Positions 51,001-62,170 of a stretch of 64,000 nt of DNA are shown in pieces. The stretch spans positions 62,141,554-62,205,553 of the forward strand of contig OX485803.1 of assembly GCA_950295325.1 (NCBI GenBank), given 5' to 3'. The notes beneath the pieces were generated by a model. It was not told where the DNA came from and made no database searches. It saw only the letters and a list, made by a program, of their open reading frames with translations. Origin of the DNA: Polytrichum commune (Eukaryota; Streptophyta; Polytrichopsida; Polytrichales; Polytrichaceae). The translations under genes were made by a program, and so were the position numbers. Each line of letters begins with the position of its first letter. Position 1 is the first letter of the stretch.

Positions 51001-52951
51001 TGAAGCAATGCTAAGTGAATAATGATTGACTCGAATGTTGAATTTAGCATTGTTAAGATATTACACCCTGAATCAGAAATGTAATGATACTGACCACAAA
51101 GAAATGTCTTTACTCAACTTTATAAGATGCGATCCATACAATAACATTCCCTGACAAATTATCTATAACTCCTTCCGGGGCCTTATTTTGGTTATCTGGT
51201 TACCGTCCTCTGTATAGATCCCACACTTGAAAAAAAACCAGCGTCGTCTAGGCTCTTCTTCAATCATGCTTGCTACTCCCGGATCCGGCGTTTATATCTT
51301 ATCATTCTGTCTACGAGACACTAACTCAGCATTGAAAATTGGCCGTGACTTTGCAATTTGAGCAGGTATCGCGACGGCGTACAATGACTATGGCACCTAC
51401 TTGCGGGGTGTGAAGGAGGACATTTTCCTGAAGAACCAAAGGGGAGAGAACTACCTCGGGCAGGTGTGGCCGGGCCCCGTCTACTACCCCGACTTCCTCA
51501 ACCCCAAGGGAGTGAAGTGGTGGACAAACGAGGTGCAAATGTTCCACGACCAGTTGCCGTTCGACGGGATGTGGATCGACATGAACGAGGTCTCCAACTT
51601 CTGCACGGGCACGTACTGCAAGTGGAACGGCACGATCGTGACGGACATGGCGCACATCACCGAGTGCTATTTGCATTGCGAGGACTCGCACACCAAGTAC
51701 GACCACCCCGCATTCCGCCTGAACCACGTCGGCACGTATGAGGTCCTCGCGAACAAGACGGCGGGGATGACGGTGCGACACTACGACGGGACGATCGAGT
51801 ACAACGCGCACAGCTTGTACGGGATCGCGGAATCTGCAGCGACGAAGCTCGCGCTAACGGCCGTGAGGAAGAAGCGCCCGTTCCTCCTCTCGCGCTCGAC
51901 GTTCGTGGGGTCGGGGGCGTACGGGGCGCACTGGACAGGGGACAACAGCGCGACGTACACGGACCTCGCATACTCAATCGTCACCGTGATGAATGCGGGC
52001 ATCGTCGGGATCCCGATGGTGGGCGCCGACATCTGCGGCTTCAATGGCGACGTCACTGAGGAGCTCTGCGGCCGGTGGATCCAGGTAGGGGCATTCCACC
52101 CGTTCTCACGAGCCCACAACAACATTGCGAACAAAGGGAAGGAGTTTTACCAGTGGGAGCGAGTCACAACACAAGCCCGGGGCGCGCTCGAGATGCGTTA
52201 CAAGCTACTGCCCTACTTCTACACGCTGAGCTACGAGGCGCACACGAAGGGCTACCCAATTGTGCGGCCTTTGTTCTTCGCGTTCCTCACCGACCCCAAG
52301 GCACGGGACGTCTCGTACCAGTTCTTGATCGGGAACCACGTCCTCGTGTCACCGGTCCTCGCCGCAAACACAAGCTCGGTGGTGGCCTACTTTCCGAAAG
52401 GCACCTGGTATAACCTCTTCGACTGGTCGAAAATCATCAGCACGGGCGAGAATGTCACCCTCCACGCTCCCTGGGACACCATCAACGTCCACGTACACGA
52501 GGGCGCCATCATTCCGCTGCAAGAGAGCGCATTGACATCCACGGCGGCACGGAAAACGCCTTTCACATTAGTCGTCGCATTCGCACACGGCGCATCAGCG
52601 GGCCGGGCACACGGGTACGTCTTCCTCGACAGCGGAGAAGACATCAAGATGGAACTCAAGCCACACAAATCCACGCTCGTCACTTTCGACGCAACGCATC
52701 GTGGCAAAGGGGGCACATTGCGGTTGCGTGCGATTCATGGGGAGTTTGCGCTCAAGGAGCATTGGGTCGTGGAGCACGTCGTGCTTCTGGGTGCGGCGGG
52801 TGGCTTCATTGACTCGGAGTCGCCATCCTTGGAATTGAACGACGAAATCGTGAGTGATGCGAAATTCTCACGAGATGGATCCAATCTGCACATGGCCGGC
52901 CTTCGCCTCCCGCTAGGCGGGGATTGTGAGCTGAAATGGGGCATCCAGTAA
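48033..52951 (+). CDS. Plant GH31 alpha-glucosidase (or alpha-xylosidase), secreted/vacuolar
   Basis: Retaining glycoside hydrolase releasing terminal alpha-glucose (or alpha-xylose) from oligosaccharides, starch breakdown products or xyloglucan. Exons: 48033-48313, 49272-49951, 50364-50594, 51366-52951; all GT-AG, phases close to 2778 bp, 925 aa, normal for the family. I chose ATG 48033 because it precedes a signal-peptide-like core ([13 protein letters not shown]); a frame upstream lacks an ATG. The N-terminal beta-sandwich holds [17 protein letters not shown]. The barrel begins near [20 protein letters not shown]. The nucleophile motif [10 protein letters not shown] gives D469 and [10 protein letters not shown] gives the acid/base D590. 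The C-terminal beta domains end in a predicted Gly/Leu-rich stretch. Substrate preference cannot be read from sequence. The last exon is strikingly GC-rich compared with exons 1-3. Intron 1 contains a MITE. Confidence 0.95.
48560..48873. mobile_element. MITE, GTGGGCCACACTAA family, copy C, inside alpha-glucosidase intron 1
   Basis: Inverted relative to copies A and B. It lacks about 60 bp of one end but keeps ATTTAGTCAAGGTGGAATTA, AGACCCTGGGTCTTGCCCCA, GTGGCCCACAGTTATAAG and a terminal ATTCAGTG. It lies between exon 1 and exon 2. Confidence 0.7.
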
Positions 52952-56054: not shown

Positions 56055-56320
56055 TGTTACACACCTCTCCATAAAGGGGACCTCAAAGTGATATATGAGA
56101 CTTGTGGTGTCATAGGTTAGAAGGCCCAAGTGATCCTAATGTGGGTGAGTGTCCTGGGCATTGAGAATGCCTCCCATCCACAGAGACTAGAAGATTATGG
56201 ATTTTAGAAGGCTCAAGAACACCTCAAACAGAAGTGTGAGCTAAGAGATATGGCAATTTGAATGGGATGTTGCTTAAGGATAGTGCCTTAGGATAGTAGT
56301 GCCCTGGGACAATAGTGACC
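56055..56320 (+). mobile_element. Decayed 5' fragment of the same LTR found at 60706
   Basis: TGTTACACACCTCTCC at its start matches the LTR start TGTCGCGCACCTCTCC. It shares GGCCCAAGTGATCCTA, GCCTCCCATCCAC and GTGTGAGCTA in the same order. Most differences look like C-to-T or G-to-A changes, often at former CpG sites. It ends after the first third of the LTR. Confidence 0.7.
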
Positions 56321-57025
56321 TAGACCTAAAATTTATGATTTGTTTTCTTGACAAGATACAAAGCCAGTACCTTTATAGTTTAGAATCACTTTCACCTAAA
56401 AGCTTTGCAAGAATCAAGAGTTGTCCATTGTATTGTGTTTGCACCCAAGTAAATATTATTATCGGATATAAAATTTTATCAGTGGAAATTGACAAGGGAT
56501 TCAAGTGCACCAAAGCATGTCGTATTTGAATTCCATATGCAAAAGCTACAAGGGTTCAAGTTATATTGGTAGATGACCCAAAACCACTTCGGAACCTAGT
56601 GACAAGGTGCTAGACATTCTCGTGGTTAACATGTAGTTATTGTGTGAGATTATAGGGTGTCGGTTTTGGGTGGAGTGTTTGTTTTACGCATTGATATAAC
56701 TTTTTGAGAATATTATTCTCTACATATTTAAATTATTTCTAGTTCCTTGATGTGCGTACTTGCTATATATGTTTTTGGATAGAGCATGATATCCTTAGTA
56801 AAAATAAAAACATAGTGTGACTTCCAATGGTGAAAACATGTTGCCATTGATATATCATTGCAAACCACTTGTCAAAAAGATGATTCTCACTAGCGCCCCA
56901 ATTTGTTGGTGGACGCTAGCTATGTTGCTCATGGATGCCCCACTCATTTAAATTCATTTTGAAATTCCATGCGGAGTTATCCATCTCACCTCCAATCAAA
57001 TAAGAAATAGGTGGGCTCAAAAATA

Positions 57026-57186
57026 TGACTGCCATGTGTTATATGACTCCCGTTATAAGACACAACATCACCCATCTATTTTCACGTTTTGTTCATGAGC
57101 TGATGACTGCCGTGTGTTATATGACTAGCATGTGTTATATGACTCCCGTGTGTTATATGACTGCCTTGGGTTATTTGACTCCCCTT
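57026..57186. repeat. Subterminal repeats of the CACTA element, 18-bp unit
   Basis: Perfectly phased 18-bp units start at 57103, 57121, 57139, 57157 and 57175 (last one partial), consensus ATGACTSCCRTGTGTTAT. Related single units lie near 57030-57055. Clustered short motifs near the ends are usual transposase-binding sites in CACTA elements. Confidence 0.75.
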
Positions 57187-57292
57187 TCGTATGTATCCAC
57201 CTAGATATGTGACTGCGTGCATGTGAGCACTCCCTCCGTGTAAGGTATTCCCATATCACAATTTGACCCGCCGCGTATGCCGTGCACTCCAC

Positions 57293-58194
57293 ATGATGGT
57301 AGGAGGGGAGTTCGAAAGCTTGAAGCATCTACAGTTATGGCAAGAAGAAGAGGTCCAAGCAGACGCCATGCGGTTATCCAAGTACCCATGTCCATACATG
57401 GAGTGTGCGGGAGGGAAAGTCCTCGATCGAGCCACAATTCAAAAGCATCTTCGTAGCAAAAAAATGAACCATGTGTTTACCGCCTCTATCTTGGTAAGTC
57501 ATTCCAACAAACGACTTTTGAATGAGCGTAAGCAGGTGGTCCTGCTTACAACGAGTTTTCATCTTTGTGTACATGAATTTTGTAGGCCCGATGGAGACCC
57601 ATTGTAAAAGCTGCTTGCAAGACATCCATGAGAAAGTTTCTAGGAGGATACGAAACGCCAACACACTCCATGCCAAACACAGCGTCTGCAAGAGTACGAG
57701 CCTTGCAGACATGGGGGTCAAACGTGTATGACGGACAGTGGTGTGACGGGCCAATCCCAAAACTTATAAAATTTTCATACTGGAATAGAGAATGGGAAGT
57801 AAGGGTGTCCAACTTCCCATTCATAGGTTGCGGTCTCTTTGCACTTCAACCCGCCAAAGAGGGAGATGAACTGCTTCCATTTGTAGGACCACAATACACC
57901 TTGGGAGAATACAGAGCTTTGAGGAAGGCACAACCTCGAGTGAAGTCATATACGATGCAAGTTGAGCCGGACTTGTACATCGATGGAGATGTAATGAAGG
58001 GGCATGTTGCTGGCTTCATAAATAGTTCCATAGGACGCAAAGAAATAGGAAATGTGGTGTGAGAATTTCGCATGTTGCCAAAACCCTGGAACAAACATGA
58101 ATGGGGGTATGTAATCACCATAGCCACAAAAGACATTTTGGTCGGAGAAGAGTTGTATGCACACTACTCTTTGAACCCGCACATCGTATTGTAG
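57293..58194 (+). pseudogene. Transposon-linked SET-domain protein, one in-frame stop
   Basis: Two exons, 57293-57493 and 57586-58194, joined by a 92-bp GT-AG intron in phase 0; 269 aa if the internal stop is ignored. Exon 1 has a Cys-containing segment (YPCPYMECAGGKVLDRATIQ) resembling the zinc-motif region that precedes TNP2 transposases. Exon 2 encodes a SET fold: FIGCGLFAL (GxG motif for S-adenosylmethionine binding), GHVAGFINSSIG in place of the usual Asn-His-Ser motif, and GEELYAHYS with the catalytic-type Tyr. A TGA at 58060-58062 falls where an aromatic residue (probably Trp, TGG) is expected; the frame then continues to TAG at 58192. It sits 520 bp upstream of the transposase on the same strand. 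Host gene capture or an element-borne gene are both possible; activity today is unlikely. Confidence 0.75.
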
Positions 58195-58717
58195 GCTGAC
58201 ACCCGGTAGTCCATATTAGGAATAACTACACTGCGTCATGTGTTCGCTAACATGACTATACCAAGTCATGGTTTGTTTTGACAAAATTTTGTATACATGT
58301 CGTGACCACGGTATACATGTATACATGGAACATGACAATTTTTCCACATCCATTGTTTGTATTTGTGTGTTGCATGGGAGTTCATGTTCCTGACACACTC
58401 CAGTCTTCATAATCTGTGGACATTCCCCCCACATATGTTATACGTTCATGTTATATTCGGCGTTTTATGATTGCCCCTTATTAGATACAGCGGACATTTT
58501 ATGATACAATCCCGTAACACAGAAGTCACAAATTTATGACTCATCCATGTGATACAAGACTACTTGTAATTGGCCCTCTGTCGTTTTCATACTTTTATAA
58601 CATGTCCATGTTATATACAATCCATGTTTTATTAATGACATTGTTATGAGTCTTTGTCGTATGTTTCAGCCAAAACGAATATATATAACGTGCGTACAAA
58701 TTTATCACTGTCTGTAG
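58195..58717. other. Spacer between SET gene and transposase
   Basis: About 520 bp with several CATGTTATA/ATGTTATAC words like those in the subterminal repeats, ending in a good acceptor (GTCTGTAG) at 58717. May contain a promoter or an intron of the transposase; no coding exon identified. Confidence 0.45.
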
Positions 58718-61700
58718 GACGAATACAGCCCGATTGACTTGTTCTCCCATGCACCGAGGAGTGGTCAAAGAAGCCAGACATACCCTAACACAAACGATGG
58801 ACAAGATGGAGAAGTTGAGGTTCTACATATGGTGACAGAGTGCTTTGGCAAGTACGATAGCCTCAATTTTGACGGACACGAAACCGAAGGCACTATACAT
58901 GACGGACTCGGGGATGCATTGGTTGGAGACCCTAAAGGGGAGGATGGTTTCACAACGAACGAAAGTGAAGGTAGCGACGAGGAAAATGAAGAAATTAATG
59001 ACCCCATGGAAACTGGAGGGAGTACCATGAACAACAAGGACCCCAGTGGGATAGACCACGAGATTCTCTTACGCGAAGCTGGAACTCCACTTTATGAAGG
59101 AAGCCCCTCGAACTGTCTGACATCGACATTATTGTTACTATTGTGTTGCACGACCTTCGCCGTACTAAACAATTTTGTGGATGAGTTGTTGAAGGAAACA
59201 ATTTTACCCAAGGACAATATACTACCGAAATCATTTTACGAGGCGAAAGGCTTGTTGATGAAGTTGGGGTTGTCCTACAACTCAATACATGCGTGTAGGA
59301 ATGGATGTTGTTTGTTTCGGAAAGATTTGGAGGATGCAACGGAGTGCCCAAGATGCCACAAATCGCGGTACGTAGAGAACTCCAAAACAATTTGAATCAA
59401 AATTTTGAGGCATTTTCCTTTAATTCCTCATTTGCGAAGGATGTACAGCTGCACACGGCTGGCGGAGCTCATGAAGTGGCATGTAGGCAGGAAAAGTTCG
59501 GACAAGGTGATGAGGTCTGTGGTGGACTCGAAGGCTTGGGACCACGTAAATAATAGGTGGCCGTGGTTTGCGGAAGAGGAACGGAACGTTAGGCTTGGCT
59601 TTGCACTGGACTGTGTAAATCCGTTTAGGAACCAAAGTCTCAGCCACTCTACTTGGCCCGTGGTCGTGCTGAACAACAATATCCCACCTTGGTTAGTGAC
59701 CAAAAATTTCTTCATGATACTTGCGCTAATCATACCAGGAAAAGATAATGTTACAGACATGAACGTGGATGTGTACCTGGCACAGTTGATTGAGGAGCTC
59801 CAAGAGCTTTGGAAAGGGATCAACTACTTGGACAGATCGCAAGGAAACTCCAAAGATAAAACATTCAAGCTACATGACATGCTTTTGTGGACGGTGAATG
59901 ACTTCCCGGCGTACGGATTGATTTCCGGGCAAGTAACAAAAGGACATAGGATTTGTCCCGTGTATGGCCCCAACGTGGTAACACGGCGTTCCAAAGCATT
60001 GAAAAAGAATGTTTGCCTTGAGCATAGACGACAACTGCCAATGACCCACGAATGGAGACAAAAGAGGTCCATTTTTTATGGGCAGCCCGAGATGAGACCA
60101 CCGCCAAGAAGAATGAGTGGTCGAGAGCAATTGCGATATGCGAACGAGCGAGAAGAGTGGATGAAAAAACACTGCACGCACTAAGGTGGACAGACGAAAG
60201 ACCCCGTACACGAACACGGAGTGAAGAGGAGGACATGTCTATATGACCTTCCATACTGGAAAGTACGTGTATGCTATTATGAGAATTATGTGAGTGGACG
60301 TAGTCACATGATTGCACGTAGTAATATTGTTTATGAGAATTATGTGAGTGGATGTAGTCATGTACAGCCACATGATTGCACATAGTGATATTGTGATTCG
60401 CACCGTCAAATTTTTGACTGGCTCGAGTCATTGTACAGGATCTTCTAATTCGACACACATTAGATGTTATGCACTGTGAGAAAAACATCGCTAAGAATGT
60501 CATGAAAACCATATTTGGAGAGAAGGACACACTTAGAGTTCGTCTTGACATGAAGGAGGCGGGTATACGCAAACATCTTTGGCCCGTACCAGGAAAGAAA
60601 CCACGCAGCGTCATTTTACGTCGGTCCTCGTACGTTCTGACGAAAGAAGAGCGCGAAGTCTTTGTGGAGCAAGTGCGTGCATTACGAACCCCCACCCACT
60701 ATGTGTGTCGCGCACCTCTCCATGAGGAGTGCCCGAAACACCATGGGCACAAGGGGGACCCCGGAGTGACACCCGAGACTTGTGGAGCCGTTGGTGAGAG
60801 GGCCCAAGTGATCCTAGTGTGGGTGAGGGCCCCGGGCGTTGGGAACGCCTCCCATCCACGGAGACTAGGAGGCATGAGGGTAAGGCCATGAGCTATGCGT
60901 AGCTCATGGCGTGGTGATTCTAGAATGCTCAAGATCACCTCAAGCGGAGGTGTGAGCTAGGAGTTATGGCCATTTGAGTGGGGCGCTGTCCCGGGACAGC
61001 GCCCTGGTACAGCAGTGCCTGGGAGTGATTCCCGGGATTGCCAAGGTTCAAACAGGCATAACTTCCTCAAGACTTGCCCGAATGGGGCAAGTGAGGAGTC
61101 CATCGGCATCTACGTGAAGCGTAGATGAAGATGGAGTGGTTGGTTGTTATGAACAGACATCATACAAGGAAGTTATGATGGTCTGAAGCTGCTGGGGGGG
61201 TTCTAGGCCCAGCAGCTAAAGGAAAATGTCCACTTGGCCCCAACTCTTGGTAGAGAGACAAGAGGTCTCTTGACGGTGGGGTAGGGGCCCCGCGGAGAGT
61301 CCTAGAGGCTTATATGGGTGAGGTGGTGTGGCCTCACCCACCCGAGGCTGAACGGCACGGCCTCCATGGGCTTTGGCCCATTGTGAGGCCATAGTTGCCT
61401 AGTATGGTTCGGGTTGTTGTAGTGTTGCTCCGGCAACGCGATGACCAACATAGGATTGCACTTCCATGGATGGAAGTCCACATTGGGGAAATGGGTTACC
61501 GATCAAGGGGTGAGTCCCGAAAGCAAAGTAGGAGGGTTGGTTCCCCTCCTATGAACTATAGGTCCAGGGTAGGAGGAGCTAACCATGAGCATGGCGGAAT
61601 GTGAAGGGTTAGCACTCATAACCTTTGCTAGGAATGAAAATTGCCAAGATGGTCAAGGGGGCTAGCAAGGGTTGCGACAATGTAGGTTAGTTGAAGAAGC

Positions 61701-62170
61701 GTGTAAACGTGGATGGGCACATAAAAGGCCTGAAATCCCATGACTACCATGTCCTCATGCAGCAAGTGTTGCCACTATGTGTGCGCTGCACAATGGAAAA
61801 GGAAGTTCGGACATCAATAATAATGTTGAGCCGTGTATTCAGCAGGGTATGTGCTAAGTCCATTGATCCCGCAACAATACATGAGATGAGGGGTGAAGCG
61901 GCCATAGCACTATGCATGTTGGAAAAAAGAATTCCCGCCATCATTTTTTGACATTATGAGCCATCTGGTTTTGTACCTCGTGGAGGAAGTGGAAATTTGC
62001 GGACCTGTACATACACGTTGGATGTACCCTATAGAGAGGTATCTCAAGACTCTAAAAGGATGCGTCCGAAACCGTGCTCAACCAGAGGGTTGCATGGCTG
62101 AAGGCTATGTCATAGTATAGGCATTGGGATTTTGTACAGAGTGTATGCAAGAATATACAGTCACCACCAG
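58718..62170 (+). pseudogene. TNP2-type transposase (Transposase_21 plus DUF4218), CACTA superfamily
   Basis: Exon 58718-60262 and, after a 176-bp GT-AG intron, exon 60439 onward. It has an acidic N-terminus, a zinc motif (GCCLFRKDLEDATECPRCHK), then ILRHFPLIPHLRRMY, the DCVNPF and SHSTWPVV blocks, and LLWTVNDFPAYG and DLPYWK before the intron. After the intron come RHTLDVMHCEKN and GIRKHLWP, and beyond the inserted LTR the DUF4218 part (LKSHDYHVLMQQVLP, CGPVHTRWMYPIERYLK). Disruptions: TGA 59393, TAA 60182, LTR at 60706, TAG 61688, one extra T in the T-run 61944-61949, TAG 62118. The frame on both sides of each stop is the same, so these are point lesions. Not functional. Confidence 0.9.
60706..61679 (+). 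mobile_element. Solo LTR (974 bp) inserted in the transposase
   Basis: Begins TGTCGC and ends GCGACA, a perfect 6-bp inverted terminal pair of TG...CA type. It is flanked by ATGTG (60701-60705) and ATGTA (61680-61684), a 5-bp target duplication with one mismatch. GC-rich, with no gag-pol inside. The transposase reading frame resumes immediately after the right flank. Solo LTRs arise by recombination between the two LTRs of a full element. Strand chosen arbitrarily from the TG...CA reading. Confidence 0.85.

Follow-up and report, generated by a model that had tools for sequence, protein, structure and literature searches.

A SET-domain gene nested in the transposase gene of CACTA transposons in a plant-type genome

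The window, by which we mean the whole 64-kb stretch of DNA that was analysed, carries a damaged transposon copy in which a short zinc-motif exon, a SET-domain exon and a TNP2-type transposase gene follow one another on the same strand (Table 1). The proposal of the earlier note that a zinc-motif segment is joined in phase 0 to a SET fold at 57293-58194 is borne out by the coordinates, by the splice signals and by the Pfam SET profile, which matches the exon with an E value of 1.7e-7 (32.1 bits against a cut-off of 22.4) when the frame is joined with an X at its internal stop, and with E values of 0.021 and 0.037 when the two halves are read apart. The position and structure of the gene thus stand as described; what had gone unreported is the in-frame TGA at 58060-58062, and because this codon breaks the SET frame, the window copy is a pseudogene. 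Exon 1 of the window copy matches both Transpos_assoc (E 0.047) and U-box (E 0.0029) below the respective Pfam cut-offs. Subterminal repeats, also noted previously, were found ahead of the gene.

Table 1. Features of the element copy in the window, with positions counted from the first letter of the window.
Feature	Position	Strand	Remarks
Subterminal repeats, ATGACTnCCnTGTGTTAT-like units	57025..57192	+	on the 5' side, where the element is truncated
Exon 1, Transpos_assoc-like zinc motif	57293..57493	+	ATG at 57293; 67 codons; CPYMEC...H motif
SET-side intron	57494..57585	+	GT..AG, 92 bp, phase 0; donor G|GTAAGT, acceptor TTTTGTAG|
Transposase (alternative) intron enclosing the SET exon	57494..58717	+	phase-0 acceptor at 58717
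SET exon	57586..58194	+	own stop TAG at 58192-58194; motifs GxG, INSS..N and GEELYAHY
TNP2 exon 2	58718..60181	+	frame broken near 59390; Transposase_21 domain at 59396-60181
TNP2 downstream exon, part 1	60418..60705	+	
Solo-LTR-like insertion	60706..61679	.	974 bp; TGTCGC...GCGACA; flanks ATGTG/ATGTA; termini by eye
TNP2 downstream exon, part 2, DUF4218	61680..62167	+	

The distance from the end of the SET exon to the broken TNP2 gene is 523 bp, in agreement with the 520 bp given before for a collinear TNP2 pseudogene. That the transposase gene is broken was recognized correctly, whereas the insertion that splits one of its downstream exons had been missed. Read from 58718, the window TNP2 matches Transposase_21 with an E value of 1.2e-60 and DUF4218 with 1.1e-26; the corresponding gene of the intact copy L016 matches Transposase_21 with 1.6e-72 as well as DUF4218, and DUF4216 under its cut-off. 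The alignment of the window to L016 begins at 57103 and ends at 62167, and the last TNP2 exon of L016 has no counterpart anywhere in the window. No CACTACAACAGATTGG terminal inverted repeat (TIR) adjoins the window copy on either side, both ends of the element having been lost. An older partial copy of the solo-LTR-like sequence lies at 56070-56303, and relatives of it, judged by eye, interrupt the SET gene in locus L053 and adjoin TNP2 in L054. Upstream of the element, a long open frame at 51362-52951 encodes a glycoside hydrolase of family 31 (Pfam E 1.4e-78). Rfam gave no match anywhere in the 64 kb.

The search for further copies covered the window's own assembly (407.8 Mb in 64 contigs). 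For the SET segment the best 150 of 190 candidates were scored, giving 143 loci after seven split fragments had been left out, and for TNP2 the best 146 of 643 candidates were scored, so that the SET and TNP2 counts are lower bounds. A SET match lies within 6 kb of 79 of the 146 scored TNP2 matches, and in all 79 it is upstream and on the same strand, while random placement of the two gave 0.15 pairs on average and at most two in 200 trials. Chance adjacency is therefore rejected. The suggestion of the earlier note to look for other TNP2 copies with SET upstream was accordingly borne out for this part of the matches, whereas the other 67 have no SET match within that distance. Six of these 67 were read: SET is lacking in L029, L030, L031 and L052, it is split by an insertion in L053, and L054 is uninformative. 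Among the matches listed, all 27 TNP2 matches below 49% identity are without a SET match. Conversely, 64 of the 143 SET loci have no TNP2 match within 6 kb among the matches listed; of three that were read, two (L037, L039) do contain TNP2 and one (L038) has none in the stretch read. The order exon 1-SET-TNP2 was found in the window, in all 20 fetched loci of the clades that we call A and B, and in seven of eight further loci from two other clades. The same N-terminal segment thus recurs upstream of SET as had been anticipated, although relatives without SET possess exon 1 too. Intact copies, for which the earlier note had also asked, do exist: four of four score 29.8-41.3 bits against Pfam SET, 24 of 28 SET exons compared are open over at least 190 residues, and about 45 uninterrupted SET frames of 198-202 residues occur among the best 150 of the 190 candidates.

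Both the SET tree and the TNP2 tree recover four diverged clades of SET-bearing elements, A, B, C and C2. The two trees conflict in their deeper order, with A joined to C2 in the SET tree (support 89) and A joined to B in the TNP2 tree (support 75). In the latter, which was rooted by choice on a single outgroup sequence (L031) and has weak deep branches (75-90), clade D, which lacks SET, is sister to the SET-bearing C2 (support 81). This position of D suggests that SET was gained once and lost once, as far as a tree of this kind can indicate. In four pairs between two subfamilies of B, at a dS of about 0.7, the dN/dS of SET is 0.15-0.20 and that of the transposase core, in the identical pairs, 0.11-0.14; between larger clades synonymous change is saturated. 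By the measure of dN/dS, SET is thus under purifying selection between subfamilies. Among close copies the ratio is 0.46 in A, 0.43 in B1, 0.80 in C and 0.17 in one B2 pair, and in the pair L025-L026 SET evolves more loosely than TNP2 (0.57 and 0.19). Many SET copies may therefore be dying, and since these close-pair values are high, the present function of each single copy is less certain. SET is dispensable in the SET-less clade, because that clade is itself multi-copy.

The TIR CACTACAACAGATTGG, a 16-mer that begins with CACTA, occurs at 46 forward and 43 reverse exact sites in the genome, the reversed-pattern control giving none. Elements of the window's group end in these TIRs, and two sites were counted as a pair if they face inward and lie less than 50 kb apart. 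Of the 30 exact pairs obtained in this way, 25 contain one SET each, and 24 of these contain TNP2 too; the SET-bearing pairs are mostly 14-18 kb and most often about 15.5 kb long. The remaining five pairs are without SET, one of them with TNP2. Seen from the SET side, 25 of the 39 loci with at least 82% identity to the window lie inside a TIR pair, which upholds the assignment of the SET gene to a CACTA element, and 34 of the 39 have at least one TIR within 16 kb. Together with the 79 collinear pairs, this decides the refuting test named in the earlier note in favour of its claim. Exact 3-bp target duplications were found by script at eight of eight A elements, and CTT/CTT, seen by eye, flanks the only B element with both ends. 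With CACTA TIRs, a 3-bp target duplication and a TNP2-type transposase, the element belongs to the CACTA (En/Spm) superfamily, and the SET gene, nested in the transposase gene, is a conserved mobile component of four diverged TNP2 clades. Four TIR pairs of 7.0-7.5 kb without SET or TNP2 match (G000:C3:45035958, C3:48730502, C4:12776107 and C6:39029013) are probably non-autonomous derivatives.

In A elements about 10 kb lie 5' of exon 1; this part contains repeated ATGACT...AGTCAT palindromes and, on the opposite strand, open frames. At L041:890-5487 (minus strand) these frames belong to a gene near the 5' end of the A element that is divergent from SET and TNP2; none of six of its open frames matches a Pfam family at its cut-off. 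One of the frames was searched against the genome (best 150 of 242 candidates, 147 of the 150 rows used). Among the matches listed, the divergent gene lies within 20 kb upstream of 41 of the 79 TNP2 matches with SET, with one more in another arrangement, beside 21 of 38 TNP2 matches without SET at 53% identity or more, and beside none of 29 SET-less ones below 53%. That SET substitutes for the second (TNPA-like) gene of CACTA elements is not favoured, as the divergent gene adjoins TNP2 both with and without a SET match; by the same occurrence SET is better regarded as an extra module than as a replacement for another element gene.

The relation of SET to the transposase gene is best seen at exon 1. 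Among the loci whose sequences were printed, 22 of 22 have a GT donor and, just ahead of SET, a TAG acceptor; TNP2 exon 2 directly follows an AG in 23 of 23, and in all 12 copies printed to that point the SET frame is closed by a stop codon. In the SET-less L029, L030 and L052, a gap without SET match (E up to 1) separates exon 1 from the TNP2 that comes after it, and in the distant, SET-less L031 one open frame holds both Transposase_21 and a Transpos_assoc domain that passes its cut-off with 33.9 bits. Since exon 1 directly precedes TNP2 in these relatives and is continuous with it in L031, it ancestrally forms the N-terminus of the transposase, and the SET exon of the SET-bearing clades therefore sits in the first intron of the transposase gene. 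Because the donor is the same and both acceptors are in phase 0, a single transcription unit with two products is the simplest interpretation; the SET exon is thus probably an alternative last exon within that intron. In three SET-bearing copies, exon 1 reaches 20.7-22.1 bits for Transpos_assoc (cut-off 27.7), and in L016 it matches U-box with 22.2 bits, just above the cut-off of 21.4. We take exon 1 to encode a zinc domain of the Transpos_assoc-like kind because of where it lies and how it resembles L031, rather than on account of its score.

SET lysine methyltransferases are marked by a GxG motif, an Asn-His-Ser motif and a C-terminal Tyr. Across the 15 aligned SETs of the family, GxG, the motif Asn, another Asn further downstream and the C-terminal Tyr show no variation, and altogether 41 of 205 alignment columns are invariant. 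The GFINSS to which the earlier note had drawn attention as a replacement of Asn-His-Ser is real and is a family trait: the motif reads INSS in 14 of the 15 copies and INNS in the other, so that the His is replaced in every case, 14 times by Ser and once by Asn. Catalysis might be weakened or lost through the missing His of this SAM-binding motif. Inspection by eye showed neither a pre-SET nor a post-SET cysteine cluster. In a profile search of the PDB the best matches were ASH1L and H3K4-specific enzymes (best E 8.9e-6, about 1e-5), with NSD-type matches too and weaker ones to EZH2 and SUV39H2; we claim no SET class, because all these matches differ by a few bits. In NCBIfam, 14 of the 15 members match a bacterial SET effector, far under the cut-off. 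Pattern searches gave 74 matches in viral and 69 in prokaryotic contigs, among which no relatives were confirmed, and a single-sequence fold (pLDDT 33.1) gave an unusable model. Within the genome, host-type SETs score up to 91.6 bits against Pfam SET and element copies up to 46.6.

We consider it on balance likely that the element makes a predicted methyltransferase, composed of the zinc domain and SET, that works on the element's own chromatin. Exon 1 would encode a short Transpos_assoc-like zinc domain of the transposase; spliced to TNP2 exon 2 it would yield the transposase, and spliced to the SET exon with its own stop it would yield a zinc-SET protein of about 265-270 residues. The zinc domain might then tether the methyltransferase to the element, either at its ends or in the transposase complex, and histone methylation at this place might keep the element's chromatin open for expression and transposition. 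Alternative splicing, tethering, the histone substrate and the anti-silencing outcome are the steps that we infer here. More tentatively, and with slightly less than even confidence, we propose for the family as a whole that a CACTA clade gained an anti-silencing SET exon in the first intron of its transposase gene, so that one pre-mRNA would give a transposase and a methyltransferase with a shared targeting domain, and that one sister clade lost SET again.

Several other readings of the same locus have to be weighed against a methyltransferase expressed from a shared exon. SET and TNP2 might be two separate genes without an exon in common, in which case exon 1 and a promoter of its own would belong to SET, and TNP2 would begin at its own ATG downstream. 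The TNP2 frames of A copies, which are open for some residues 5' of the acceptor and contain ATGs, are in keeping with this arrangement, whereas stops lie a few codons 5' of the acceptor in most B copies printed, and exon 1 stands directly before TNP2 in SET-less relatives and in one frame with it in L031; we regard separate genes as rather unlikely. The opposite arrangement, in which a donor just 5' of the SET stop fuses SET and transposase into a single protein, is disfavoured and in our estimation very unlikely. Some GT does occur shortly before the stop in the window copy, in B copies and in L032; however, these GTs are at differing places, the one of the window is absent in five of five other A copies printed, and each of the 12 SET frames closes with its stop. 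The capture of host gene pieces by CACTA elements, known as Pack-CACTA (PMC13317346, as far as the accessible part of that review goes), would lend some colour to SET being a neutral host passenger or a chance neighbour, and the earlier note had indeed spoken of a passenger captured from the host. This description proved too weak for a gene that is found in four clades at a fixed intron position, with an exon 1 that is apparently shared, and under purifying selection. A neutral passenger is rejected on the dN/dS of SET between subfamilies and on its mobility in units with TIRs and target duplications. Recent capture is not supported, since the four strongest host-type SETs of the genome are absent from the best 150 of the 190 matches to the element SET, and we hold a passenger or chance neighbour to be barely conceivable.

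The remaining readings accept the SET protein and differ in what it would do. With Asn-Ser in place of Asn-His, SET might be catalytically dead and act within the transposition complex as a module for binding or dimerisation, and both the loss of His throughout the alignment and the weak similarity to solved methyltransferases point that way; the invariant GxG, Asn and Tyr positions, in contrast, are unlike a decaying enzyme, and we judge this reading unlikely, though worth serious attention. SET enzymes with non-histone substrates exist, so the transposase might be what the protein methylates, or else the divergent 5' gene, which is conserved in these same elements, might supply the substrate. 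Since the divergent gene also lies beside SET-less TNP2 in the proportion given above, a non-histone substrate seems to us improbable without being far-fetched. SET might also lay a repressive mark by which the element limits its own activity, and EZH2 and SUV39H2 were indeed matched, weakly, in the profile search. The best profile matches, by a few bits, are nevertheless ASH1L and H3K4-specific enzymes, and selection on an element would presumably maintain self-restraint less easily, which leaves this possibility quite unlikely.

Known CACTA/En-Spm elements have in common with the present one the CACTA termini, the 3-bp target duplication, the subterminal repeats and a TNP2 transposase (Transposase_21, DUF4218), and they differ from it by the extra SET exon in the first transposase intron. 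SETMAR (Metnase) of primates joins a SET domain to a transposon protein in a single host fusion gene; the present family is in contrast mobile and multi-copy, and its SET and transposase are predicted to be separate products. In Phytophthora, SET histone methyltransferase genes are carried by HarbingerS and MuDR elements (Kojima and Jurka, 2014, as related in the accessible part of PMC12730594). Like the element described here, these are DNA transposons with a SET methyltransferase gene, and so far as that source describes them they belong to other superfamilies in an oomycete host, as opposed to CACTA in a genome that, judged by its domain content, is plant-type; the transposase here is TNP2, not PIF/Harbinger as in HarbingerS. 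In the accessible part of PMC12730594, TET/JBP is reported from DNA transposons of fungi, among them EnSpm and Plavaka, and these transposons, some of them CACTA-related, likewise bear an epigenetic enzyme, the TET dioxygenase targeting methylcytosine whereas SET targets protein lysine. The VANC protein of VANDAL elements, which are plant DNA transposons, counters silencing through noncoding repeats (PMC10398659, in its accessible part). It is the nearest plant analogue in role in the literature searched, anti-silencing being a proposed role for the present element. To our knowledge, VANC is not a SET protein.

A CACTA element or other plant transposon with a SET gene was not found in the literature searched, outside which lie subscription papers and Repbase reports. 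The accessible parts of PMC12730594, PMC13317346, PMC10398659 and PMC12477816 describe no CACTA element with a SET gene, and the terms 'SET domain' and 'methyltransferase' are absent from the main text, so far as accessible, of PMC13317346, a 2026 review of plant gene capture. If our reading is true, SET would be the first chromatin-writing gene known for CACTA elements. Transposons with chromatin enzymes of their own allow direct tests of the struggle of mobile DNA with silencing, and the shared-exon layout hints at an easy way for a transposon to aim such an enzyme at itself. Since one genome holds SET-bearing and SET-less elements, many open SET frames and young-looking copies (L014 and L015 are 98% identical over about 8 kb), expression, chromatin marks and spread of both kinds could be compared in one nucleus. 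One further SET/TNP2 pair, at G000:C1:63437346-63441005, has 72% and 60% identity to the window and is intermediate between the main groups.
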